From contig JAGDXH010000007.1 in assembly GCA_023256295.1 (NCBI GenBank), positions 1 through 23,397 of the forward strand: a DNA stretch of 23,397 bases, given 5' to 3'. The notes below the pieces were generated by a model. It was not told where the DNA came from. It did not search any database and was given only the letters and a program-made list of their open reading frames with translations. The position numbers and the translations under genes were made by a program. This stretch comes from Thermoproteati archaeon. GTDB lineage: Archaea > Thermoproteota > Thermoprotei_A > Marsarchaeales > UBA168. Positions 1 to 15,127 of the stretch are shown piece after piece; the stretch's first letter is position 1, and each line of letters begins with the position of its first letter.

Positions 1-203
1 GCCCCATCCCTTTGGGCGAAAGGTCCTTCCAGATCCAATCGCCTATTGGGGATTATCCTCAGTTTCCCGAGGTTATACCCATCGCGAGGGCAGGTTAACC
101 ACGCGTTACTGAGCCGTACGCCACGCGCGCAAGGGCGCGCGTCGACTTCCATGGCTTAGTCTTATCCCGATAGCAGTCAGGTCCGGCAGGATCAACCGGA
201 GTC
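1..203 (-). rRNA. 16S ribosomal RNA, 5' end (partial)
   Basis: Read on the minus strand, 200 down to 182 is the universal archaeal 16S start (TCCGGTTGATCCTGCCGGA). It is followed by typical helix sequences such as GACTAAGCCATGGAAGTC and ACGGCTCAGTAACGCGTGG. The gene runs off the left edge of the window, so only about the first 200 nt are present. The wording GACTGCTATCGGGAT just after the start resembles crenarchaeal and thaumarchaeal 16S genes, which is the main basis for the lineage guess. The exact 5' end (about 201-204) is approximate. Confidence 0.97.
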
Positions 204-4917: not shown

Positions 4918-4927
4918 GATATATAAG
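4918..4927 (-). promoter_or_regulatory. TATA box of the binding-protein/permease operon
   Basis: The minus strand reads CTTATATATC, about 18-27 nt before the ATG at 4900. The position predicts transcription starting at or just before the start codon. Confidence 0.55.
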
Positions 4928-5054
4928 TGTATGGCACCTTCTTCCTTGCCCGACACCAACATCAGCAAAAAGGTAGCTTCTTCACCAAGCAGGTTTCAGG
5001 GCGCAGAACCCTTCCCGGACGTCGCATTAGCGCCTCTCCGCCTTCAGAAAGACA
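4928..5054. other. Non-coding stretch between binding-protein promoter and phosphoribosyltransferase promoter
   Basis: An open frame crosses this stretch, but its residues look random and it precedes the likely TATA box of the next gene. I see no RNA gene, repeat or clear regulatory element in it. Confidence 0.45.
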
Positions 5055-5073
5055 TTTATCGAAGATCGATAAA
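5055..5073 (+). promoter_or_regulatory. Inverted repeat overlapping the TATA-like box of the phosphoribosyltransferase gene
   Basis: The sequence tttatcgaagatcgataaa is a perfect 8-bp inverted repeat with a 3-nt centre. Its left arm is also the best TATA-like element for the ATG at 5086 (centre to start about 28 nt). A protein bound here would block TBP or polymerase, so it looks like a repressor operator. The gene's own C-terminal winged-helix-like region makes autoregulation possible, but this is inference. Confidence 0.4.
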
Positions 5074-5085
5074 ACTCTGTCCGAA

Positions 5086-5781
5086 ATGGTGGAAAAAATC
5101 CCATGCCGCATGCTGTCGTGGAAAGACGTCCAGGCCATGAGCCTCGACCTCGCGAAGAAAGTACAATCGGCTGGTTTCAAGCCAGACGTCATAGTCGCAG
5201 TTGCTCGCGGAGGACTTATAGGAGCGAGGTTGGTCGCTGACGTCCTCGGGGTACCGGATTTCACGTGCCTACGCATAGCCCATTGGGGAGAGACCGCCGT
5301 GAGAGGAAAGGAAGCCGTCCTGGAAAGAGGGATAGGAGGAAGCGTCGAAGGCAAGAACGTTCTTCTGGTCGACGATATAACTGATACGGGAAAGAGCCTA
5401 AGTGTCGCGAAGTCCTACCTTGAAACGCTGAAGCCCGCTCAGGTCAAGACGGCGGCGCTTCAGCACATAAGTGGATCCAGTTTTCGCCCAGATTTCTTTG
5501 GAAAGGAGGAAAAAAAGTGGGCTTGGTTCAGCTATCCGTGGAACAGGTGGGAAGACTTGCGCAGCTTAACCAAAAGATTGATGTTAGAAACAGGAAAAAC
5601 TTTGACCATTGATGAAATCCAGGCCGGGTTCAAACAGTACTTTGGGATAGAGTTAAGCCGTACTCTAGTGAAAAGAACTCTAAGAGATCTGCAAGAGAAG
5701 GGCTTCGGACAGATCAAATCAAATGCATTTGAACTTCAAGAAGTGGGCCCGCGGCGAGTTTCACCCCCTTTTGGGCTTTGA
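5086..5781 (+). CDS. Purine-type phosphoribosyltransferase with C-terminal winged-helix-like region
   Basis: This 231-residue protein belongs to the type I phosphoribosyltransferases, which join a base and PRPP to give a nucleotide. The PRPP loop is VLLVDDITDTGKSL (about 92-105), preceded by the conserved IVAVARGGLIGARL (36-49). The overall pattern resembles archaeal hypoxanthine/xanthine enzymes (COG2236 type). Residues about 161-217 read as a helix-turn-helix-like extension (TIDEIQAGFKQYFGIEL then RTLVKRTLRDLQEKG), suggesting DNA binding. The open frame extends up to 4927, but its first 53 residues look non-coding and lie upstream of the TATA-like box, so ATG 5086 is preferred; ATG 5110 is possible. 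The last 12 residues are encoded by the antisense of the tRNA-Ile gene, so the true functional C-terminus may end before them. Confidence 0.82.
   Translation: MVEKIPCRMLSWKDVQAMSLDLAKKVQSAGFKPDVIVAVARGGLIGARLVADVLGVPDFTCLRIAHWGETAVRGKEAVLERGIGGSVEGKNVLLVDDITDTGKSLSVAKSYLETLKPAQVKTAALQHISGSSFRPDFFGKEEKKWAWFSYPWNRWEDLRSLTKRLMLETGKTLTIDEIQAGFKQYFGIELSRTLVKRTLRDLQEKGFGQIKSNAFELQEVGPRRVSPPFGL
5758..5776 (-). other. tRNA intron 3 (T-loop, 59/60)
   Basis: The 19-nt intron GCCCAAAAGGGGGTGAAAC lies in a full bulge-helix-bulge. The outer helix is the T-stem CGGCG/CGCCG, the central helix TTCA/TGAA, the bulges AAG and ACT, and the inner helix CCC/GGG. Removal restores TTCAAAT exactly. Confidence 0.9.
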
Positions 5782-5912: not shown

Positions 5913-6401
5913 TTGCGGCCAGATGAAATTTCTAGAAAAGCATATGAGCTGATGCATAATTCGGGTATGCTTTCGGCAAAGGAAATCATGAGCGCTTTGG
6001 GAAAAGAGGTCTCGATAAACCCCTTCAGGGAAGATCAGATCGGGCCTGCAAGTTACGACTTGACCTCCTCGCAAGAACTAACGATCAGCCCTCACCATTG
6101 GCAGCTGACCTCGACCTCGGAACGCGTGAGCCTTGGAATCGACTTAGCTGCATCCCTGTTCATAAGGTCTTCTTTTGCGAGGGAGGGCCTGTTTGCCAGC
6201 TTGGCACTGGTAGACCCTGGCTTTGATGGAAACCTGACCATCTCGATTTTTAACGGAGGCGACAAGGACGTAGTTATTCACAAAGGGGAAAGGTTTCTGC
6301 AGATATCTTTTTTCCGGCTTGGAACCCCCACGAACAAACCGTATGCTGGAAGATACCAGCACAGCTTAGGCACCGTTGAAAGCAGGAGGGAAAAATCATG
6401 A
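5913..6401 (+). CDS. dCTP deaminase/dUTPase-fold protein, probably dUTPase-like
   Basis: This protein (162 residues from TTG 5913) belongs to the dCTP deaminase/dUTPase superfamily, which keeps uracil out of DNA. It has GPASYDL (44-50), the phosphate-binding IRSSFAREGL (84-93), LVDPGFDGNL (99-108) and a C-terminal Gly/Tyr tail (YAGRYQHS). In dCTP deaminases the motif after DPGFxG contains a catalytic Glu (LEF/LEL); here that position is Ser111. Asp101, which aligns with the water-activating Asp of dUTPases, is kept. A dUTPase or other non-deaminating role is therefore more likely than dCTP deamination. The start is uncertain: ATG 5952 or ATG 5967 (MLSAKEI, like the usual family N-terminus) also fit, with TATA-like TTTTATGC/ATATTTAT at 5892-5909. 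It is translationally coupled to the next gene by ATGA. Confidence 0.8.
   Translation: MRPDEISRKAYELMHNSGMLSAKEIMSALGKEVSINPFREDQIGPASYDLTSSQELTISPHHWQLTSTSERVSLGIDLAASLFIRSSFAREGLFASLALVDPGFDGNLTISIFNGGDKDVVIHKGERFLQISFFRLGTPTNKPYAGRYQHSLGTVESRREKS
6385..6390 (+). promoter_or_regulatory. Shine-Dalgarno site of the HTH phosphoribosyltransferase gene
   Basis: GGAGGG lies 7 nt before ATG 6398, inside the upstream gene. It shows that internal operon genes use ribosome binding sites while first genes appear leaderless. Confidence 0.6.
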
Positions 6402-7123
6402 GAGATCTTTATGATGAAACCAAGAAGAAACTAGAACTCATAGAATTCTTAAAGATGGTTAAGACCCAAGAGACCTATGAATCTCTCTCGAGCAAGTTGA
6501 GCCACGTAAAGCTTTCGCCAGCCATAATGAGCCGCTACGTCAACGGTAGGGTCCTGCCATCAGGTAAAAGGGCTGAAGAGTTGATGAAGATGCTCAGAGA
6601 AGCTTATCCAACAGAAACGCTCGTTGAAACAAACATAAGCGTAGACGAAAGAGGGGTCGTTGATGATACGAAGATAATATCGAATCCATCTTTGATCAGA
6701 CTTCTTGCAGCGGATTGCCACAGCGCTCTTGATGTCACACCAGATGTGACCCTAACGGTTGCCGCAGACGGGATCCCTTTCGCTTACGAGCTCTCGATGG
6801 TGTTTGGGACTCGGCTTGCCATAGCTAAGAAAGAAAGAGAGGCAGGCGTGGATCAATTTTACGAGCAAACTGAGCTCTCTCTTTCAAGCGGGGTAAAGGA
6901 GGGTTTTTACCTGCCAAAGAGCATGCTCTTTAAGGGAGAAAGGGTTCTGGTGGCGGACGACTTGGCAAGAACAGGTAGGACGATACACGTCTTGATGGGT
7001 CTGGCGAAGCAAGCAGGAGCCCTGCCAGTCGGGCTGGCCCTGATAATATCGACCAAAGAGGCTGTTTCGGGCCTGAGCGGAATTCCCACTTACGTCGGCC
7101 ACTACGTCCGAGACCCGCGATGA
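6398..7123 (+). CDS. HTH-phosphoribosyltransferase, PyrE-like regulator or salvage enzyme
   Basis: This 241-residue protein has an N-terminal helix-turn-helix-like region (about 25-65, including LSPAIMSRYVNGRVLPSG) and a type I phosphoribosyltransferase domain with PRPP loop RVLVADDLARTGRTI (182-196) and a VAADGIPFAYEL segment (121-132). The architecture matches the archaeal group of PyrE-like transcription factors and enzymes (COG0856/GfcR type), which sense nucleotides or PRPP, but an adenine phosphoribosyltransferase activity is equally possible. The ATG overlaps the stop of the dUTPase-fold gene (ATGA), and the cobD-like gene starts 1 nt after its stop, so the three form one operon. It is the second HTH-linked phosphoribosyltransferase within 2 kb. 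A role in controlling this operon is inference. Confidence 0.8.
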   Translation: MRDLYDETKKKLELIEFLKMVKTQETYESLSSKLSHVKLSPAIMSRYVNGRVLPSGKRAEELMKMLREAYPTETLVETNISVDERGVVDDTKIISNPSLIRLLAADCHSALDVTPDVTLTVAADGIPFAYELSMVFGTRLAIAKKEREAGVDQFYEQTELSLSSGVKEGFYLPKSMLFKGERVLVADDLARTGRTIHVLMGLAKQAGALPVGLALIISTKEAVSGLSGIPTYVGHYVRDPR

Positions 7124-7124
7124 T

Positions 7125-8195
7125 ATGAGCATGGCAGAGCATGGCGCGGACGTTTGGAGAGATGGGGTGCGCCTTCCCTTATTGGATTTTTCAAGCAACG
7201 TGAACCCCCTCGCTCCGCCAAAGGGTCTCTTAAAGGAGGCCCACCATCTGATTAGGCTAGCTTATGACTACCCTGAACCTGAGTCTTCATCCCTTCAACG
7301 CTTTCTGGCGGAGTACCACGACGTGCAGCCAGCTCAGGTCCTTGCTACAAACGGGGCAAACGAGGCAATATATCTCGCGACCGCGAAGGCACCCCCAGGG
7401 GTGGCCCTTATAATTGCCCCAACCTATAGCGAGTATCAAAGGGCTGCCGAAGGATTCGGGCACAAGGCGACCTACGTGCGTCTCAGACATCCGTTCGAAC
7501 TCAAGGCATCCCGCATCATATTGCCAGAGCACACTTCAATGATATATCTGTGCAATCCCAACAACCCGACTGGCACGATCACGCCAAAGGCGGATGTACT
7601 TGCTCTCCACGAAAAGGCCAAGGCGATGGGAGCCATCCTCCTCGTAGATGAGGTCCACATGGATCTGGCTGAGAACGAGGAAGACTCTGTGATCAAAGAA
7701 GTGGATGACCACATGATTGTCATTCGTTCACCCGCCAAACTGCTCGGAATACCTGGGCTGAGGGTAGGCTACGCGGTCTCTTCAGCAAACAGGATAGCCA
7801 GCATTGCCTCAATCAGACCCACTTGGGACGTCAACGTGATTGCCTCGGAGCTAGTCAAGCACTGGATGAAGAGAGATTATCAAGAAGAGAGCCGGCACTA
7901 CGTCTCGAAGGAGAGAAAGAGAATTGTAAACCGTCTCCTTCGCATGGGCTTTACCGTGTACCCTTCAAAGACCAACTTCCTGCTACTCAGGAAACCAGGC
8001 ATCAACTCCGCGAAGTTGAAGATGCGGTTGATGGAAAGAGGGTACCTGATAAGGGACGCATCCTCCTTCGAGGGTTTAGACCACACTTACATCAGGATTG
8101 GAATCATGAGGGCTAGGCAAAATGACGAGCTGCTGAACGCCCTTAAAGCGTTCTTCGGGGAAGCAAAACCACATGAAACACAGGGTCGTTCTTGA
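7125..8195 (+). CDS. cobD: CobD-like L-threonine-O-3-phosphate decarboxylase
   Basis: This 356-residue PLP enzyme of aminotransferase fold class I should decarboxylate threonine phosphate to aminopropanol phosphate for the cobalamin lower-loop linker. The N-terminus EHGADVWRDGV with LLDFSSNVNPLAPP (19-32) is the CobD/CobC signature, rather than HisC. Further family marks are NGANEAIYL (76-84), CNPNNPTG (143-150), the cofactor-contacting Asp175 in LLVDEVHMDL, and PLP Lys205 in SPAKLLGIPGLRVGY. Start ATG 7125 is 1 nt after the previous stop; ATG 7131 is possible. Its neighbour on the opposite strand is a BtuFCD-type importer, which supports a role in corrinoid salvage or synthesis. The last 53 nt overlap the 3' end of the convergent btuD-like gene. 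Histidinol-phosphate aminotransferase is the main alternative. Confidence 0.82.
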   Translation: MSMAEHGADVWRDGVRLPLLDFSSNVNPLAPPKGLLKEAHHLIRLAYDYPEPESSSLQRFLAEYHDVQPAQVLATNGANEAIYLATAKAPPGVALIIAPTYSEYQRAAEGFGHKATYVRLRHPFELKASRIILPEHTSMIYLCNPNNPTGTITPKADVLALHEKAKAMGAILLVDEVHMDLAENEEDSVIKEVDDHMIVIRSPAKLLGIPGLRVGYAVSSANRIASIASIRPTWDVNVIASELVKHWMKRDYQEESRHYVSKERKRIVNRLLRMGFTVYPSKTNFLLLRKPGINSAKLKMRLMERGYLIRDASSFEGLDHTYIRIGIMRARQNDELLNALKAFFGEAKPHETQGRS

Positions 8196-8919
8196 CCAAC
8201 ACCCTTACTCCATAAACTGCCTCGATTACCTCTGGTGTAAGCACGTCCTGTGGCTCTCCAGAGGCAAACTGCCTGCCTTGCTTGAGCACAATCACCTTCT
8301 TCGAGAAGCGGCCAGCCAGTGTCAGATCGTGAAAGCTGGCTAAAACAGCTCTCTTTCCCTCAAGCTTCCCTATTTGCCTCATGACTTCCTGCTGAGCCTT
8401 AAGGTCCAAGTGAGAAGTTGGCTCATCAAGAAGCATCAGGTGCGAGGCTTGGGCAACTGCTCTTGCCAAGAGCACCCCCTGAAGCTCACCCCCACTGAGA
8501 GAATCCAAGCGCCTTCCGCTCAGATGACCCACCCCGAACAATTCCATGGCAGACTTGACCGCCGCCTTGTCCTCAGGGCCCTCGTCTCCCCAGCGATCCA
8601 GGTGCGCGTACCTGCCAAGCATGATGTAGTCGTAGACCAACAGCTGAGAACTGGGGGGCTCCTGCGGGACGACGGAAAGAAAAGACGCCACCTGCCTCCT
8701 GCCCATCTGCTTCTCATCGCGCCCAGCGAGGCGCACCGAGCCTGTGTAAGGGACAAAACCAGCAATTGCCCTTATCAGCGTCGTCTTTCCGGAACCGTTT
8801 GGGCCAACTAGCCCAACTAAATCTCCCTCCCCGACGACGAGGTTTATGTGATCAAGTACGTCTCTATCTCCCAGCTTGACCGAAAGGTCTTCACACTCGA
8901 GAAGGGGCAAGCAGCTCAC
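8143..8919 (-). CDS. btuD: Corrinoid/iron-siderophore-type ABC importer ATPase (BtuD-like)
   Basis: This protein of about 258 residues is the ATPase of a BtuCD/FecCDE-type importer. It has Walker A GPNGSGKTT (39-47), signature LSGGE (141-145), Walker B LMLLDEP with Glu166, and switch His197 in ASFHDLTLAGRF. The open frame extends back to 9204, but those extra residues overlap the permease gene and match nothing. The GTG at 8919 overlaps the permease stop (GTGA), gives the usual family length and marks translational coupling. The importer type alone does not separate corrinoids from ferric siderophores or haem; the convergent cobD-like gene favours corrinoids. The gene ends inside the cobD-like gene on the other strand. 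Confidence 0.87.
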   Translation of the reverse strand: MSCLPLLECEDLSVKLGDRDVLDHINLVVGEGDLVGLVGPNGSGKTTLIRAIAGFVPYTGSVRLAGRDEKQMGRRQVASFLSVVPQEPPSSQLLVYDYIMLGRYAHLDRWGDEGPEDKAAVKSAMELFGVGHLSGRRLDSLSGGELQGVLLARAVAQASHLMLLDEPTSHLDLKAQQEVMRQIGKLEGKRAVLASFHDLTLAGRFSKKVIVLKQGRQFASGEPQDVLTPEVIEAVYGVRVLVKNDPVFHVVLLPRRTL

Positions 8920-9929
8920 CTCTTGAGCGAACCTTTCATCAACAAGAAGAAGAACGGAACGCCTATGAGGGCGGTTATTATGCCAATTGGAATTTCGAGA
9001 GGCGCCATAGCCGTCCGAGCAACGTCGTCGCATAGCAGCAAAAAGATCGCTCCCATCAAGGCGCTGGCTGGTAGCAACACCTTGTGAGCCGACCCGAACG
9101 TCATCCTGGCCATATGCGGGATCATGAGACCGACGAAGCCAATTAGCCCGCTCACTGAGACGGCAGAGGCAACCATCAGCGCAGTAACCGAAAGAACGAA
9201 CCACTTAGCTGTTCTGACGTTTACTCCAACGTAATGCGCTTCCTCCTCGCCAAGGCTCAGGGCATCAAGCTCACGACGGAAAAGGAACAATGCCAAGGAA
9301 CAGGCAAGCACAATCCCCGTTACAAGGGGCAACTCCTGCCAGTTTGCACCCGATAAGCTCCCAAGGAGCCAAAAAATGACTTCTGGCCTCTGCGATGCCT
9401 TTGTGTATAGCAGAAAGGATGAGAGAGCTCCGAAGAGAAGACTTACCGCAACGCCAGAAAGAAGCAGTACGCCAGCCGGCGTACCCACAGACGAGCTGTA
9501 AGAAACGGAGCGAGCCAAAGCGTAAACGAGCAGGACCGACAGCAACGAAAACAAAAAAGCCATGAGTTGCAAGCCATATTCATAGGCCTCCAGAAACGGA
9601 AACGCAATGGCCAGCGAAGCACCCAAAGCAGCTCCGCTTGATATACCGATGACGTATGGCTCGGCCATCGGGTTCCTGAAGATCGCCTGCACCGATGTCC
9701 CGCCGAGAGCAAGAGCGGCCCCTACCACCAGGGCAAGGATGACTCTCGGCAGCCTCAGATAGTAAATTATCTCCCAATATAACTCCGGAGGTTTTGAGGA
9801 CAACCTCGCGGCGTAAAGTAACGAACGGATGACGTACTGGGGCATGATCGGGATCGGGCCGAAGTCAAGCGACAAAAAAACTGCCAGAAACGCCAAAAAA
9901 AGGCCAGCGGCCCATCTTACCTTCAACAA
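8916..9929 (-). CDS. btuC: Corrinoid/siderophore-type ABC permease (BtuC-like)
   Basis: This 337-residue polytopic membrane protein of the FecCD/BtuC family would form the dimeric channel of the importer. The family signature is clear: RLPRVILALVVGAALALGG (about 59-77), then FRNPMAEPYVIGISSGAALG (about 83-102), and the C-terminal LIGFVGLMIPHMARM. The hydrophobic segments fit the usual nine to ten membrane helices. Translation probably starts at TTG 9929, 3 nt after the stop of the binding-protein gene, and the downstream ATPase gene overlaps its stop codon. The order SBP-permease-ATPase is the standard operon. Confidence 0.9.
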   Translation of the reverse strand: MLKVRWAAGLFLAFLAVFLSLDFGPIPIMPQYVIRSLLYAARLSSKPPELYWEIIYYLRLPRVILALVVGAALALGGTSVQAIFRNPMAEPYVIGISSGAALGASLAIAFPFLEAYEYGLQLMAFLFSLLSVLLVYALARSVSYSSSVGTPAGVLLLSGVAVSLLFGALSSFLLYTKASQRPEVIFWLLGSLSGANWQELPLVTGIVLACSLALFLFRRELDALSLGEEEAHYVGVNVRTAKWFVLSVTALMVASAVSVSGLIGFVGLMIPHMARMTFGSAHKVLLPASALMGAIFLLLCDDVARTAMAPLEIPIGIITALIGVPFFFLLMKGSLKR

Positions 9930-9932
9930 GGT

Positions 9933-11048
9933 TCACTTTGAGGGCTCGTTTTGCTTCACGCGATCCGCTTTTTTTCTAAGATACCAGTAAGACAGAACAC
10001 CCAGCAGAGCCAGCACGACGATCACACCGGCCGCTTCAACGTAACCAGGAACAGAGGACTGAGCTGGTACCAAGGACTTGGGCTGAGGAATGGCCTCAGT
10101 ACCCGTGTAGGCCGGGCATTGCGGAGGCACATAGCCTTTCATGGCAGAGGGGTGAAGCACCTCTGCCAACCAAACGATGCCATAGATTAGCCTATACGTG
10201 GGCTGATCGAACCATCCCTCGTGTGGAAGCACATATACCCTTCCATCCTTCACTGCAGGCATCGCGTTAAATGGAGCTTGGCCAACCACTGAGGCGTTCA
10301 CGTATTGGTCAAGAAGAAGCGTTTGAGGCCGATCTGCGAGCAGACTTTCTGGACTGATCGTCCCCCAGCCTTCAACGCCAGACGCAACGTTCGTACCACC
10401 AGCCAGCTCTATCATCGAGTTCATAAATGTGTCATTTCCAGCGGTCCAATAGCCCCCAGATGTGTCTAGCAGATAAAATGCGCTTACCTTGTTGGAGGGC
10501 AGACGGGATTGAACCTGAGATATGACTGTATTCATCCAAGCTACGATCTCTTGCGCCTTAGCCTGTGTTCCCGTAGCGTTTCCGACCAACACGATGTCCC
10601 GTTCAACCCCGCTTATGTTGGTCGGATTCAGCACGATTACAGTCAAGTTCATGGACCTCAGTTTTTCTACCTGCTGCTCGCTGTTGATCCCTGACGCAAG
10701 TATCAGCTGTGGTTTAAGCGCAAGTATCTCATCGTAATCAAGGCCATAATAAGAGCCAACCGAAGTCAGATTGCTTGCGATTGGAACTATGGTCGAACAC
10801 ACGTACTCGTTACCCAATCCACCTACGAGTTCACTTCCAAGCCCCAGCCCATACGCTATCACGGTGTTACTCGGAGCCAACGAGATGATCCTCGTGGGCC
10901 TCTGCAGTATGTGGACTACGGCCCCATCATCGTCGATTACCGTTACCGGCCTCCAAGAACTGCTTTGGGCCGCCGCTGTCTCGAACGGAATCACGAAAGC
11001 TGAGACAACAAGAATGAAAACAACCACTGCCAAGAGCCTCTTCAGCAT
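9933..11048 (-). CDS. btuF: Corrinoid/siderophore-type binding protein with C-terminal membrane anchor (BtuF-like)
   Basis: This 371-residue class III periplasmic-type binding protein presents substrate to the BtuC-like permease from outside the cell. It has a Sec signal peptide (1 to about 27, ending FETAAAQ), the family start RPVTVIDDDGAVV...PTRIISLAPSNTV, and the DEILALKPQLIL segment. A membrane helix (about 338-358) followed by RKK at the C-terminus anchors it, as common in archaea. Start is ATG 11048 with a TATA-like box about 21 nt upstream, so the mRNA is probably leaderless. A dyad shared with the nrdD promoter sits just upstream of that box. Corrinoid specificity is inferred from the cobD-like neighbour and not proven by residues. 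Confidence 0.87.
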   Translation of the reverse strand: MLKRLLAVVVFILVVSAFVIPFETAAAQSSSWRPVTVIDDDGAVVHILQRPTRIISLAPSNTVIAYGLGLGSELVGGLGNEYVCSTIVPIASNLTSVGSYYGLDYDEILALKPQLILASGINSEQQVEKLRSMNLTVIVLNPTNISGVERDIVLVGNATGTQAKAQEIVAWMNTVISQVQSRLPSNKVSAFYLLDTSGGYWTAGNDTFMNSMIELAGGTNVASGVEGWGTISPESLLADRPQTLLLDQYVNASVVGQAPFNAMPAVKDGRVYVLPHEGWFDQPTYRLIYGIVWLAEVLHPSAMKGYVPPQCPAYTGTEAIPQPKSLVPAQSSVPGYVEAAGVIVVLALLGVLSYWYLRKKADRVKQNEPSK

Positions 11049-11067
11049 ACGCGTGGGAAAAACTCAG

Positions 11068-11075
11068 CTATAAGC
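11068..11075 (-). promoter_or_regulatory. TATA box of the btuFCD operon
   Basis: The minus strand reads GCTTATAG, about 21 nt before ATG 11048. It lies between the shared dyad and the start codon, just beyond the 3' end of nrdG. Confidence 0.55.
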
Positions 11076-11076
11076 C

Positions 11077-11095
11077 TTTGGATAATCTATCCAGC
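11077..11095. promoter_or_regulatory. Putative operator shared with nrdD (btuF copy)
   Basis: The plus strand reads tttggataatctatccagc, with dyad core GGATA-atc-TATCC. It matches the nrdD copy at 13616-13634 in 17 of 19 positions. It sits 2 nt upstream of the TATAAG/CTTATA element, exactly as at nrdD. It overlaps the last codons of nrdG. Confidence 0.6.
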
Positions 11096-11761
11096 CTTGA
11101 AGCAGTGCTCCTCGCACCAGGCTTTGTCTCTTGGATCCGTGAGCGGTGGCCCGAGCAGTTTGTTCCAAATCACAGTGCTGTGCTTGGGAGAGTGCTCAAG
11201 GGCTACCGTCAGGACTTCCTGGTAACGAGATTCTGGAAAACCGCGAGCATAAGGAACTCTTAGCTCAAGCGCTATGCCAGCCTCTTTCAAGATGTCCAGC
11301 GATTGAAGGAAGCTGCGGAAGAGAACCGCCCGGATTGTCTCATCAACCCCGTAAAACTCAGGAAGCTTCACATCCGTGGCTACGTGATCTAGATAAGGAA
11401 GCACGAGCTTCAACGATGACGGTAGCGTGAGATTGGAGTTGACAGATATTTTGACCTGGTATTTCTTTATCTTCCCCAAGAGGACGGCAAGAGCAGGAGC
11501 TTGGACGAGCGGTTCGCCACCAGTTATGTGAACGTAGTCGATCAGCGAAAGCGAGCTTTTGATCTCCCCAAGCAGCGCTTCCTCTTGAAGCGGACCGCAG
11601 ACCGAACGATCGGATTCCGCTAACCTCCAGTTATGACAAAAAGGACACTTCAAGTTGCAGCCGCAAAGCCAAAGAGTAAAGGTGACCGCTCCCTTCACGT
11701 CGACCATGGAAAGTGGCTTCCACCCTGCTGTCATCAGTGGCCTTGGTGATTCAGAGGACAT
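11087..11761 (-). CDS. nrdG: Anaerobic ribonucleotide reductase activating enzyme (radical SAM)
   Basis: This 224-residue radical SAM protein should place the glycyl radical on NrdD. The 4Fe-4S cluster motif is Cys35-x3-Cys39-x2-Cys42 (CNLKCPFCHNW), and the SAM-binding TGGEPLVQ segment follows around residue 80. FTLWLCGCNLKC is the usual pattern of NrdG-type activases. The ATG overlaps the end of nrdD by 11 nt, which fits coupled synthesis of reductase and activase. Its stop lies within the shared dyad of the next promoter. As an oxygen-sensitive system it implies life without oxygen at least part of the time. Confidence 0.9.
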   Translation of the reverse strand: MSSESPRPLMTAGWKPLSMVDVKGAVTFTLWLCGCNLKCPFCHNWRLAESDRSVCGPLQEEALLGEIKSSLSLIDYVHITGGEPLVQAPALAVLLGKIKKYQVKISVNSNLTLPSSLKLVLPYLDHVATDVKLPEFYGVDETIRAVLFRSFLQSLDILKEAGIALELRVPYARGFPESRYQEVLTVALEHSPKHSTVIWNKLLGPPLTDPRDKAWCEEHCFKAG

Positions 11762-13586
11762 ACTCGTTCCGCGTCCAGAACTCCTTCTGCCTAGCTGGAT
11801 TCCAGTTCTTGAGGGGTCTGTAATAGCCTATTATCCTGCTCCAAATCTCAACGTCTTCGGATCCGCAACGAGGGCAAGTCGAATGTATGCCGACTGACGT
11901 GTGCCCGCACGCTCTGCATACCGTTAGAGCTGGGGTATAGCTCCAGTAGACTAGATCAGTCTGAATCAGTTTTTTCGTCAGACTGGCAAGGGCCTCCGGA
12001 TCTGGCTCTTCACCCAAGAAAATGTGCATCATAACCCCTCCAGTGAAGCTCTTCTGTACCTTGGCTTCTATCTCGATCCTGTCTGGAAGCTCAACCACTC
12101 CATAGTAGGGGGCGATGCTAGTACTATATATGGGATCTGTGTCTTTCGGAAGAAAATCTCTCAGTCTAGGGAAATCCCTGGCATCCGAAAGAGCAAGTTT
12201 GGGTGCTGCAGATTCGCCCGGTACTTCCTCAACGTTCCATGGAACGCCTGTCTCCGTCATCCAACGCCTGGCGTGATCGACTGCAAATGTGACAAGTTTC
12301 TTCATCAGCTCTGCGGCTTCTAGCCAGTCCTTCCTGTTGCCCTCATACCAGAGGTCTGGCTTGTTCATCAAAATCGATGCAGCTTCTGGAAGCCCCAGAA
12401 GCCCGATGGTATTGAAGTGATTCTGAGGGAACTCTGGCAGATATGTTCTGATTGCCCAGTAAAAACCGGGATATCTGGATATATAAGTGGTATACCTATT
12501 CCTCAGCCACTCCTCGGCCGCGCGGACCAACTCGAGCTTTTCCTCATAAAGCTCCCAGAAATCACTCTCATTGGGAGCTTCCATGGCAATCCTAGGCAAG
12601 TTGACGTCCGTGGCATTTACAGAGCCAGTAGCATCAGGAATTGCCCAAATCCCACCGAAACGTGCCTTGTCATCCCGCGGTTCTTCTTTCGACAACCCAT
12701 AAGCAAACGCCAGCTCGTTCCTATCTATATTGATCCTGCAACACATCGCGAAGCTTGCATCTGGATCCACCACTCTGGTGTTCAACCAATAGAAGCTTCC
12801 TTTCTTGGACGCCGTCTTGAACACCTGATCGTGGATCTCTGGATCATCCCACAGCATTGGAGCCGTGGCCATCAGCGTTGGAATGGGAAACGTGAAAGGG
12901 GCACCAGCGGAGTCCCCTTCCATCAATAGCGATATGAGGGCCAGCACAAAGGACCTTGCTTCGACCTCGTATGTACCAAGAGGGCCGGCCTTTTGACCTC
13001 CTATCAGAGCTTGATCTCCTTCCAGCATCTTCTTCGACGCATCCAAGGAAATCGTGAAGTTCGTGAAGGGAGTTTGCATGCCGACCCGGCTGGGATAGTT
13101 CAGGTTGAAAAGCAACCTTTGCACGTTCTGCTTTACCCCCTGGAACGACAGGCCATCCGACTTGATGAACGGACCTGAATACCACTCTACGGAGGACGCA
13201 GCTTGAGCACCCGTGAAGAAGTGCTGCAAGGTTATCAGATAGTTGGCCAAATGGTCGACGAAGGTATCCATATGCCTGGCTGGTCTTGAAGATACCGTAG
13301 ACGTGACCAAACCCTTGCTCAGAAGCGTCTGCATTGAGTGACCGCTGCAGTAAGGCAGGTAAACGCTCAGGGGTAACTTGTGGACATATATGTCCTTTCC
13401 GTGAGCGAGAAGTAGCTCTTCAGGGAACTCTTCCTGAACGTCTTTCCAGATGGCTCTCTCCGCAGCAAAAGAAAAGTAGCCAGTTGGGCCTTCGTACTTG
13501 TTCGCGTTCTCAAGCACGTCCATGTCTTCTCTCTTGACATACTCAGCAAAGGCAGAACCCCTTCCTAGAGCAGACCTCTGTGCCAT
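11751..13586 (-). CDS. nrdD: Anaerobic (class III) ribonucleoside-triphosphate reductase
   Basis: This 611-residue glycyl-radical enzyme makes deoxyribonucleotides under anoxic conditions. The C-terminal marks are a four-Cys zinc site (Cys557, 560, 571, 574; CRACG and CPRCG) and the radical loop RIIGYYRPLKNWN with Gly587. The core contains LPYCSGHSM with Cys80 and the segment YPSRVGMQTPFTNFTIS. The protein starts directly at the core; there is no recognisable N-terminal ATP-cone, so dATP feedback through that domain is probably missing. Start is ATG 13586 with a strong TATA box 22 nt upstream, predicting a leaderless mRNA. nrdG follows with an 11-nt overlap. Confidence 0.94.
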   Translation of the reverse strand: MAQRSALGRGSAFAEYVKREDMDVLENANKYEGPTGYFSFAAERAIWKDVQEEFPEELLLAHGKDIYVHKLPLSVYLPYCSGHSMQTLLSKGLVTSTVSSRPARHMDTFVDHLANYLITLQHFFTGAQAASSVEWYSGPFIKSDGLSFQGVKQNVQRLLFNLNYPSRVGMQTPFTNFTISLDASKKMLEGDQALIGGQKAGPLGTYEVEARSFVLALISLLMEGDSAGAPFTFPIPTLMATAPMLWDDPEIHDQVFKTASKKGSFYWLNTRVVDPDASFAMCCRINIDRNELAFAYGLSKEEPRDDKARFGGIWAIPDATGSVNATDVNLPRIAMEAPNESDFWELYEEKLELVRAAEEWLRNRYTTYISRYPGFYWAIRTYLPEFPQNHFNTIGLLGLPEAASILMNKPDLWYEGNRKDWLEAAELMKKLVTFAVDHARRWMTETGVPWNVEEVPGESAAPKLALSDARDFPRLRDFLPKDTDPIYSTSIAPYYGVVELPDRIEIEAKVQKSFTGGVMMHIFLGEEPDPEALASLTKKLIQTDLVYWSYTPALTVCRACGHTSVGIHSTCPRCGSEDVEIWSRIIGYYRPLKNWNPARQKEFWTRNEYVL

Positions 13587-13605
13587 GCGCTCCCTTCAGA
13601 GGCCC

Positions 13606-13613
13606 AATATAAA
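13606..13613 (-). promoter_or_regulatory. TATA box of the nrdDG operon
   Basis: The minus strand reads TTTATATT, with its near edge 20 nt before ATG 13586. This is one of the best TATA matches in the window. Confidence 0.6.
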
Positions 13614-13615
13614 CG

Positions 13616-13634
13616 TTTGGATAATTTATCCAAC
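13616..13634. promoter_or_regulatory. Putative operator shared with btuF (nrdD copy)
   Basis: The plus strand reads tttggataatttatccaac. Inside it TTGGATAA-t-TTATCCAA is a perfect 8-bp dyad with one central base. It lies 2 nt upstream of the TATA element of nrdD and touches the stop codon of the upstream gene. The copy at 11077-11095 has the same spacing. Confidence 0.65.
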
Positions 13635-14014
13635 TACTGAGTCTGCGCAGGCAGCACATATATGCGAACAATCAACATGGGAGTCCCATCCTTGGGGCAT
13701 GCTTCTGCTTGTTTTCCCACATAGTCACCGACGGCGAACTCACGGGTCACCTGATAACCGCAGGTAGGGCAGCGCAAAACCGTAAAGGTTTTTTCTGGAA
13801 TGTGAGAAGAATAGTAGCTGATCCTGTAGTAATTCATAACGCTCAGGTATATGAGTGCGCCTGCTGCTAAGTAACTCGCAACTCCGAGCAAGATCCCAGA
13901 AAGACCTTGGGTGAACGACTGAGACCCAATTATGATGAGCATAGCAGCGAGCACAAGACCAATGACCAAATTCGCGTACTTCGCAGCAGAACTCGGCCTC
14001 TTTGGGGCAGACAT
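13634..14014 (-). CDS. Small membrane protein with zinc-ribbon-like C-terminus, function unknown
   Basis: I do not recognise this 126-residue protein. It has two hydrophobic segments (about 14-31 and 37-60) and then a soluble tail with CPTCG (Cys82, Cys85) and CPKDG (Cys106), so a zinc ribbon in which Asp109 replaces the usual fourth Cys is plausible. It starts with ATG directly after the stop of the DUF1512 gene (no gap), so the two are co-transcribed and may work together at the membrane. The nrdD promoter begins right after its stop. There is no basis for naming a function. Confidence 0.65.
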   Translation of the reverse strand: MSAPKRPSSAAKYANLVIGLVLAAMLIIIGSQSFTQGLSGILLGVASYLAAGALIYLSVMNYYRISYYSSHIPEKTFTVLRCPTCGYQVTREFAVGDYVGKQAEACPKDGTPMLIVRIYVLPAQTQ

Positions 14015-15127
14015 TCAAGCCACCCCTATGGTATTCCCGATTCCCGCTATCAGGACCGAATCCCCTTCCTTGGTCTGTTCCCTTATTACCTGACGGACCT
14101 TGTCGGCGGCAGCTGGAATTGCATCAGAGATCTCCTTCTTCATGCCGGTTATGGCTTCATCCATAGACTCCTTCACGATGATTGCAAGCAACGGGATGTG
14201 ATGAGTTCTGGCCGCCTCCTCTATCTTGAACTTCTCCGGACCGGGATCACCTATTGCAGCCCCTACGCCTTCCGCGACTTGACCCGTCTTCTCTCCCTCG
14301 AGTTTGAGCGCCGCGTCTACGGTAACCACTAGCTTGACATCCTTGGCCTCGTCCTCTATGAGCTTCAGCAGACCTAGTCCTGGCTTCCCGACCCTCCCTC
14401 CCGGTCCCTTTGCCTTTAGGAGAAAGAGCTTTCTTCCCTCGAACTCGGCAACCGCATATGCTGTCTTGGTTCCCTCTATGTCCTTGAACTCAGCCTGCCC
14501 TGCCAATTCCCTGATCACCATGGGCCCAGCAGCATCGCCAATCGGCTTCCCTGCCACGAACGCATCAAAGGCCTTTCCGTAACTTTCCGCCAACTCTCTG
14601 ATCTGGCCCAAACTCATGGCTACTTGCATCAAGATCATCCAATTTCCTTGCTTCTTGCCCAGGATCAAGTAATGCTGCACTACCTTGTATATGAAGTTCA
14701 GAGCCATCGCTGCTTCCATAGCCACCCCTAGGTTTGCCTGCACCTCCGAAGAGGCACCAGGAGCCAGCCGAGCCATCTCTTGGTCAAACCTGTTATCCCT
14801 GACATCAAGGATGTACTCAAGGCGGGTCAGCACGCCTGCCGGATCCTTGTCGACGGGTTCTATGGCGAAGAAATCCAAGAAATCCCTCACCCTTTGGCTG
14901 GGATCCATGGGAGGCTTACCTTCGCTAACGATGGTAGAGATGAGCTTACCCGTGGCAGAATCGGTCATGGACTTGACTTCTCTCAAGAAACCCTCTATCT
15001 GACCCTGCCAGATCCTAGCCTGAAGCTTTTGACCGTAAAACATGAAGTAAATCCAAAATACCGTTATCAGACCGTAAACTATCCATCCAGCTGTGCTGCT
15101 GGGAAGAAACGAGCTAACTGCGCTCAA
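14015..15127 (-). CDS. DUF1512 family protein with N-terminal membrane anchor
   Basis: This 370-residue protein resembles the archaeal DUF1512 family, whose function is unknown. A single hydrophobic helix (about 12-32) is followed by a long soluble domain. The C-terminal half has Gly-rich, nucleotide-fold-like stretches (GPGGRVGKPGLGLLKLIED and SVLIAGIGNTIGVA), but no motif that proves nucleotide binding. Start is TTG at 15127 with TATA-like TATTTAAG at 15156-15163 (CTTAAATA on the minus strand). It is followed without gap by the small zinc-ribbon membrane protein, and is divergent from coaD. The family assignment is from memory of its overall pattern and should be checked. Confidence 0.7.
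   Translation of the reverse strand: MSAVSSFLPSSTAGWIVYGLITVFWIYFMFYGQKLQARIWQGQIEGFLREVKSMTDSATGKLISTIVSEGKPPMDPSQRVRDFLDFFAIEPVDKDPAGVLTRLEYILDVRDNRFDQEMARLAPGASSEVQANLGVAMEAAMALNFIYKVVQHYLILGKKQGNWMILMQVAMSLGQIRELAESYGKAFDAFVAGKPIGDAAGPMVIRELAGQAEFKDIEGTKTAYAVAEFEGRKLFLLKAKGPGGRVGKPGLGLLKLIEDEAKDVKLVVTVDAALKLEGEKTGQVAEGVGAAIGDPGPEKFKIEEAARTHHIPLLAIIVKESMDEAITGMKKEISDAIPAAADKVRQVIREQTKEGDSVLIAGIGNTIGVA

Follow-up and report, generated by a model that had tools for sequence, protein, structure and literature searches.

A shared dyad before nrdD and btuF of a Marsarchaeales archaeon as a putative B12/cobalt operator, with DUF4443 as candidate regulator

Background

Many archaea make or need cobalamin (vitamin B12), and those that oxidise ammonia are regarded as important sources of it in the sea. 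For some archaea, a DNA signal at B12 genes, the 'CBL-box', was reportedly predicted by Rodionov et al. in 2003 (J Biol Chem), for a hypothetical B12 regulator left unnamed. In bacteria, genes for ribonucleotide reductase (RNR) are regulated by NrdR, whose box differs from the element described below; NrdR is not known to be tied to cobalt or B12 genes. Archaeal regulators of the TrmBL1/SurR type activate when their site lies upstream of the transcription factor B (TFB) recognition element (BRE), and act as repressors when it lies downstream of the TATA box. Here we describe a dyad that occurs twice in a 23,397-nucleotide stretch of DNA from a Marsarchaeales archaeon (contig JAGDXH010000007.1 of assembly GCA_023256295.1; this whole stretch is called the window), once before nrdD, which encodes a class III (anaerobic) RNR, and once before a btuF-like gene. 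A sequence-only reading of the window had proposed that one regulator links the class III RNR and corrinoids; this core idea is supported by our analysis, in that the sites are near-unique in the genome, conserved in the genus and common to B12 genes of distant archaea.

In its genomic settings, the dyad behaves in a way that fits a B12/cobalt operator. It was found in archaeal promoters of cobalamin transport and synthesis genes (btuF, btuC, cobT-like, cbtB, cbiM and cbiB/cobN), as expected of a CBL-box, and, by this comparison of genes, is plausibly that predicted signal. If the two are the same motif, the operator is already known as a prediction. What sets the present case apart from the CBL-box is a candidate regulator, the reach into Thermoproteota, the pairing with nrdD in the genus and a rule of spacing to the TATA box. 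None of these four was found in the literature searched, in which most subscription journals were absent, and the same search returned neither 'CBL-box' together with archaea and cobalamin, nor a B12-sensing regulator of archaea, nor any mention of DUF4443 or of five dyad strings. The sequence-only reading had taken the regulator to be new, and a candidate for it is offered below; the kind of regulon is probably not a new one, since the dyad behaves as a B12/cobalt operator. The TrmBL1/SurR-type regulators are alike in position dependence and differ in motif, protein family and signal. The same logic as that proposed here is seen in the bacterial cobalamin riboswitch, by which uptake, cobalt supply and B12-independent isoenzymes come under B12 control (PMC7689651, section 5.3.1); the riboswitch is RNA, whereas the element here is a DNA dyad. 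No cobalamin riboswitch was detected in the window with Rfam, in which the sole match at the gathering threshold was the small-subunit (SSU) rRNA.

The paired dyads and their promoters

The genes nrdD, nrdG, btuF, btuC and btuD are co-directional on the minus strand, nrdG lying between nrdD and btuF; the names btuF, btuC and btuD are based on NCBIfam matches below curated cut-offs. The features are as follows.

13617..13633, no strand: dyad preceding nrdD (putative operator), reading TTGGATAAATTATCCAA in gene direction
13606..13613, minus strand: TATA-like box of nrdD, TTTATATT, 3 nt after the dyad
11751..13586, minus strand: nrdD, class III (anaerobic) RNR; NCBIfam NF006358 and TIGR02487 over cut-off, and PF13597
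11087..11761, minus strand: nrdG, radical S-adenosylmethionine activase of NrdD; TIGR02495 (NrdG2) over cut-off
11078..11094, no strand: dyad preceding btuF (putative operator), reading CTGGATAGATTATCCAA in gene direction; its outer half overlaps the nrdG end
11067..11074, minus strand: weak TATA-like box of btuF, CTTATAGC, 3 nt after the dyad
9933..11048, minus strand: btuF-like substrate-binding protein; NCBIfam TIGR04281 and BtuF NF002894, both below cut-off
8916..9929, minus strand: btuC-like permease; top NCBIfam match NF007081 (BtuC), below cut-off
8143..9204, minus strand: btuD-like ATPase; matches to the corrinoid ATP-binding cassette (ABC) ATPase NF007082 and an F420-0 ABC ATPase, below cut-off; frame as listed, the family match starting about 100 residues in

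As had been claimed from the letters alone, the two 19-mers (11077-11095 and 13616-13634) lie at these places and are identical at 17 of 19 positions. The GGATA/TATCC dyad noted at both comes close to perfection at nrdD, where 16 of 17 positions are self-complementary, as many as an odd length allows; at btuF it is imperfect, with 12 of 15. Variants of the dyad include TTGGATAAATTATCCAA and TTGGATAAACCATCCAA. The gap to the TATA element, given earlier as 2 nt, is the same in both promoters and amounts to 3 nt from the full 17-mer. The starts, placed 21-22 nt beyond the element, were measured at 27 nt (nrdD) and 26 nt (btuF), counted to the ATG from where the box begins. A good TATA box was found at nrdD, and the btuF box CTTATAGC is a poor match (score 4.6). 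The view that chance is unlikely held up in both counts: 1) the proposed pattern, with up to 3 mismatches, gave 3 matches in the window versus 0.09 expected from dinucleotide shuffles, two of them exact and one being the nrdD site read in reverse, and 2) in the window genome (G000; 70 contigs totalling 750,054 bases, completeness 69%), these two sites were the only zero-mismatch matches, a third place having 2 mismatches and the reversed control giving 1 match.

Both sites recurred in each of the three other genomes of the genus that were searched (G001 to G003, which identical coordinates equate with UBA168, KMA_Bin27 and SpSt-1254), forming a pair about 2.6 kb apart at nrdD and btuF; two zero-mismatch sites were present in G001 and in G003, and one zero-mismatch plus one one-mismatch site in G002. 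Of the two outcomes named beforehand as speaking against the idea, namely many unrelated hits in the genome and loss of the sites in close relatives, neither was seen. The earlier placing of both sites in non-coding DNA was half right, since the outer half of the window btuF dyad consists of the last codons and the stop of nrdG; in G001 to G003 the entire btuF dyad is within the nrdG 3' end. The nrdG reading frame over the dyad differs between the window and these three genomes, so the DNA word has been kept although the frame has not. The spacing was also maintained: of the 8 promoters in the genus, 7 have 3 nt between dyad and TATA box and the eighth has 2 nt.

The B12-dependent class II reductase NrdJ, named earlier as the alternative to NrdD, is encoded in the window genome (NF006417 over cut-off), and PF02867 was found in all four genomes of the genus. 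Encoding NrdJ and NrdD, the window genome thus has B12-using and B12-free routes to deoxynucleotides. Before nrdJ itself, no dyad with up to 2 mismatches was found at two loci of the genus (L217 and L220), and L218 had only one, far from the start; in G003 the nrdJ start lies off the contig.

Dyad sites in Thermoproteota

A search of 398 Thermoproteota genomes with the strict 17-mer gave matches in 11 genomes (reversed control, 2). Outside the window genome, 7 of 10 strict dyads had a DUF4443 gene no further than about 1.5 kb away: three lay between that gene and the divergent cbtB-cbtA cobalt transporter, and four at a membrane gene resembling an energy-coupling factor (ECF) S-component, next to a DUF4430-type gene. 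Pfam support for the S-component-like gene was none or sub-threshold, and that for DUF4430 was over cut-off in L234 and L265 and below it in L270. As for the remaining three, two were inside coding frames and chance-like, and one (L226) adjoined a small gene that is similar but had no match in Pfam. Among relatives in the order, G005, G007 and G008 had a one-mismatch core dyad at an S-component-like gene near DUF4443.

The dyad joined to its TATA box (TTGGAY-N5-RTCCAA-N3-YTTAWA) was found at 56 places in 50 of the 398 genomes, with 1 match for the reversed control. All 30 composite loci that were read, out of the 56 places, were at cobalt/corrinoid genes: 25 at cbtB (called by BLAST, two Pfam-confirmed), one (L332) before a masked stretch followed by cbtA, one at cbiM, and three between cbiB and cobN (from closely related genomes, one Pfam-checked). 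Seven of the other 26 places were seen separately, these being the window nrdD and six cbtB promoters. A cbtB locus at first thought to be without a dyad (L252, in G425) matches the composite as well. The 3-nt gap was found in 18 of 18 cbtB promoters having the dyad; at S-component-type genes (f21 and f56; G005, G007 and G008) the dyad is downstream of the TATA box.

It was also noticed that locus L317 of G332 carries cbtB-cbtA with the composite element in a genome where no DUF4443 was detected.

Dyad sites in Thermococci

A scan of 51 loci encoding NrdD relatives showed that several Thermococci carry the dyad ahead of nrdD; the loci labelled Desulfurococcales gave no match, several of them holding little upstream DNA. 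Ten Thermococci genomes, nine picked because their nrdD locus carried the dyad, were then searched with up to 1 mismatch, giving 53 places versus 4 for the reversed control. Forty-seven places were read (G157:C75, G157:C173, G157:C198 and G156:C30 were left out, and G152:C65 and G153:C75 were seen as nrdD loci only), and 33 of them were at RNR or cobalamin-linked genes: nrdD (11), class II RNR (4), the large (5) and small (4) subunits of methylmalonyl-CoA mutase, meaB (2), a carboxylase-type gene (2), cbiB (1), btuF/cobT-like intergenic regions (3) and btuC (1). Eight others were indirect, comprising six at the gene of an ADP-forming acyl-CoA synthetase, in most cases with an ArsR-like gene as partner, one at a CitMHS-type transporter beside an ArsR gene and one at a PHP-domain gene. 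These genes were called by eye, save that for the mutase subunits, MeaB, CobT (TIGR00303) and the intein-bearing NrdJ one example apiece was checked with NCBIfam; the BtuF and BtuC examples were checked at family level only. With the strict 17-mer, 19 places were found in 14 of 61 genomes of the Thermococci phylum (G158 included; reversed control, 0), and the 14 places read, again by eye, were at nrdD (9), the mutase small subunit (3), btuF (1) and an ArsR/CitMHS transporter (1).

The position of the dyad varied with the class of gene. The proximal nrdD dyads precede the start codon used by 9-16 nt and, in 6 of 8 cases, are downstream of a mostly weak TATA box, no separate box being called in the other two. 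At mutase and carboxylase genes the dyad is 30-33 nt upstream of the TATA box in 10 of 11 cases, and in all 4 nrdJ cases, where no box is clear, it is 169-170 nt before the ATG. Exceptions to such rules were meaB with a downstream dyad, a cobT-like gene (L138) with an upstream one, and the acyl-CoA synthetase with both kinds.

Three Thermococci loci (L101, L129 and L136) have two dyads about 90-110 bp apart between nrdD and a gene for a TPR protein, which suggests paired or looping binding. The class II reductase of a Thermococcus (L118, 1-2282) carries intein ends (TIGR01445 and TIGR01443). In L115 and L348, the dyad is right at the start of the CitMHS-type transporter, beside an ArsR-like gene, with no obvious B12 link.

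DUF4443 as candidate regulator

The DUF4443 protein has about 200 residues, with a winged helix and PF14544, and its gene often faces cbtB across the dyad. PF14544 was over cut-off in G000 to G003, each of which has one DUF4443 gene; a protein 95% identical to that of the window genome (P0001) is listed with PF22167 and PF14544. The family was found in 9 of 10 Thermococci and in 28 of 30 genomes overall. The nearest solved sequence is PDB 2P8T, 'hypothetical protein PH0730' (E 2.7e-9, query L233), placed in the same family as the proposed regulator by Pfam match; the PDB record gives it no function, and in the one paper found with the name PH0730 it is listed just as a winged-helix family.

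Since DUF4443 had been chosen after its place among the dyad neighbours was seen, it was tested on 29 loci (L277-L305) taken from the best-scoring family matches and not chosen by motif; many of the genomes are close kin, so that the counts are not independent. The core dyad with up to 1 mismatch was found 12 times versus 0 for the reversed control, and with up to 2 mismatches 28 times versus 2. In 16 of the 29 loci it was at the cbtB promoter or, in one case (L304, Peripla_BP_2), at a binding-protein promoter. DUF4443 was present in 49 of 50 composite-bearing genomes versus 260 of 348 others (Fisher 3.7e-5, with kinship ignored and the lists compared by eye). A search for a regulator with the B12-binding domain PF02310 returned the mutase subunit, proteins of about 430-550 residues and a few weak matches. 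Judged from these gene neighbourhoods, DUF4443 is the best regulator candidate for the dyad, to which it would bind, presumably as a dimer and under control of a ligand.

Proposed regulation and alternative explanations

We infer that each dyad is probably the operator of a winged-helix protein from the DUF4443 family, acting as a dimer, which would report the supply of corrinoid (vitamin B12) or cobalt and repress nrdD-nrdG and btuFCD when that supply is ample. Under ample supply, the protein on the dyad would reach into the BRE and TATA box and keep TFB and the TATA-binding protein (TBP) off both promoters; the cell would then rely on the B12-dependent NrdJ and stop importing corrinoid. In B12 shortage the dyads would be vacated, and the B12-free reductase and the importer would both be made. 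A control site shared by these two makes sense in that both answer the same shortage. By this account oxygen, mentioned earlier because the class III RNR works only without it, need not be the signal, as B12 supply explains the gene set; cobalt could be the signal instead of B12.

A wider proposal, which we advance tentatively and with slightly less than even expectation, is that DUF4443 is the missing B12/cobalt regulator of archaea, a protein counterpart of the bacterial cobalamin riboswitch, common to Thermococci and Thermoproteota, including ammonia-oxidising archaea. It would act in two ways according to position, shutting B12-free reductase and uptake genes from beside or below the TATA box and turning on B12-using enzymes from 30-33 nt above it. 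Dyads downstream of the box would block initiation, and those far upstream of it at genes for B12 enzymes would be well placed for activation; a regulator that binds when B12 is present makes sense of all three position classes. The solved yet unexplained structure 2P8T would thereby gain a testable role, and the outcome is a short operator with its spacing rule and gene set, all amenable to checks in Thermococcus, which can be cultured.

Several findings weigh against DUF4443 as the repressor at these dyads. DUF4443 is common (309 of 398 Thermoproteota genomes), so its presence alone is weak evidence. In 13 of the 29 loci not chosen by motif, the dyad was absent or represented by two-mismatch matches elsewhere only. 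No dyad was found near DUF4443 in G004, G006, G009 or the four genomes of the genus, in the last of which the gene does not adjoin nrdD or btuF either. Conversely, G154 and G332 have dyad sites with no DUF4443 detected. Of the 47 Thermococci places read, six lacked a clear B12 link, besides the eight indirect ones. The fixed 3-nt spacing, finally, could reflect an activator touching TFB.

That DUF4443 is not beside the dyads of the window genus leaves room for a real operator, linked to B12 or cobalt, with another binder, which we regard as unlikely. Two proteins were considered and set aside as such. One is the phosphoribosyltransferase beside btuD (6398-7123), which has an N-terminal helix-turn-helix (HTH)-like segment, is convergent with the btu genes in the window and in G001, and is 37-40% identical to relatives found in 7 of the 8 Thermococci genomes that were searched; the dyad was found in none of those seven Thermococci loci. 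The other is the ArsR-like protein of Thermococci, whose gene shares one intergenic region with the dyad in L115, L122, L127, L130, L133 and L135; it has no ortholog in the window genus, just weak HTH matches (E 1e-5 or worse). Unlike DUF4443, neither is tied to the dyads in Nitrosopumilus-type genomes.

An activator, or else a modified TFB contact, had been suggested from the position just upstream of the TATA box and BRE. In the activator case the regulator (DUF4443 or other) would, in B12 shortage, bind by the BRE and recruit TFB and TBP to nrdD and btuF. The nearly invariant 3-nt gap in the genus and in cbtB promoters is what a protein-protein contact would predict, and the Thermococci mutase and carboxylase dyads are in activator-like positions. 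However, at S-component-type genes of other lineages and at nrdD and btuF of Thermococci the dyad is downstream of the TATA box or right before the start codon, which suits repression, and one protein that represses nrdD in Thermococci and activates it here would need reversed logic. Activation at nrdD and btuF is thus not favoured and seems unlikely; repression fits better because uptake-type dyads occur on either side of the TATA box and the Thermococci nrdD dyad is right before the start codon. A chance likeness or a copied promoter, to which the distance of merely 2.5 kb between the sites and the overlap of the btuF site with nrdG codons in G001-G003 might point, is very hard to credit given the shuffle expectation, the differing flanks of the two promoters and the finding of the dyad at the same classes of gene in two phyla, where the controls gave almost nothing.

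Other features of the window

An archaeal SSU rRNA gene is represented at 1-202 (minus strand) by its 5' end, the window edge cutting it off. A plus-strand phosphoribosyltransferase gene (4927-5781; matches to the family below cut-off) encodes a C-terminal part that is winged-helix-like by eye. At 5913-8195 (plus strand), a likely operon of overlapping or adjoining genes encodes a dCTP deaminase, the phosphoribosyltransferase with the N-terminal HTH-like segment and a CobD/HisC-like aminotransferase; this group is convergent with btuD and is also present in G001 (L215, 8180-10370). Upstream of nrdD, a gene for 126 residues (13634-14014, minus strand) with no Pfam or NCBIfam match adjoins a DUF1512 gene (14015-15127); relatives of both are at the same place in G002, as is one of the DUF1512 gene in G001.

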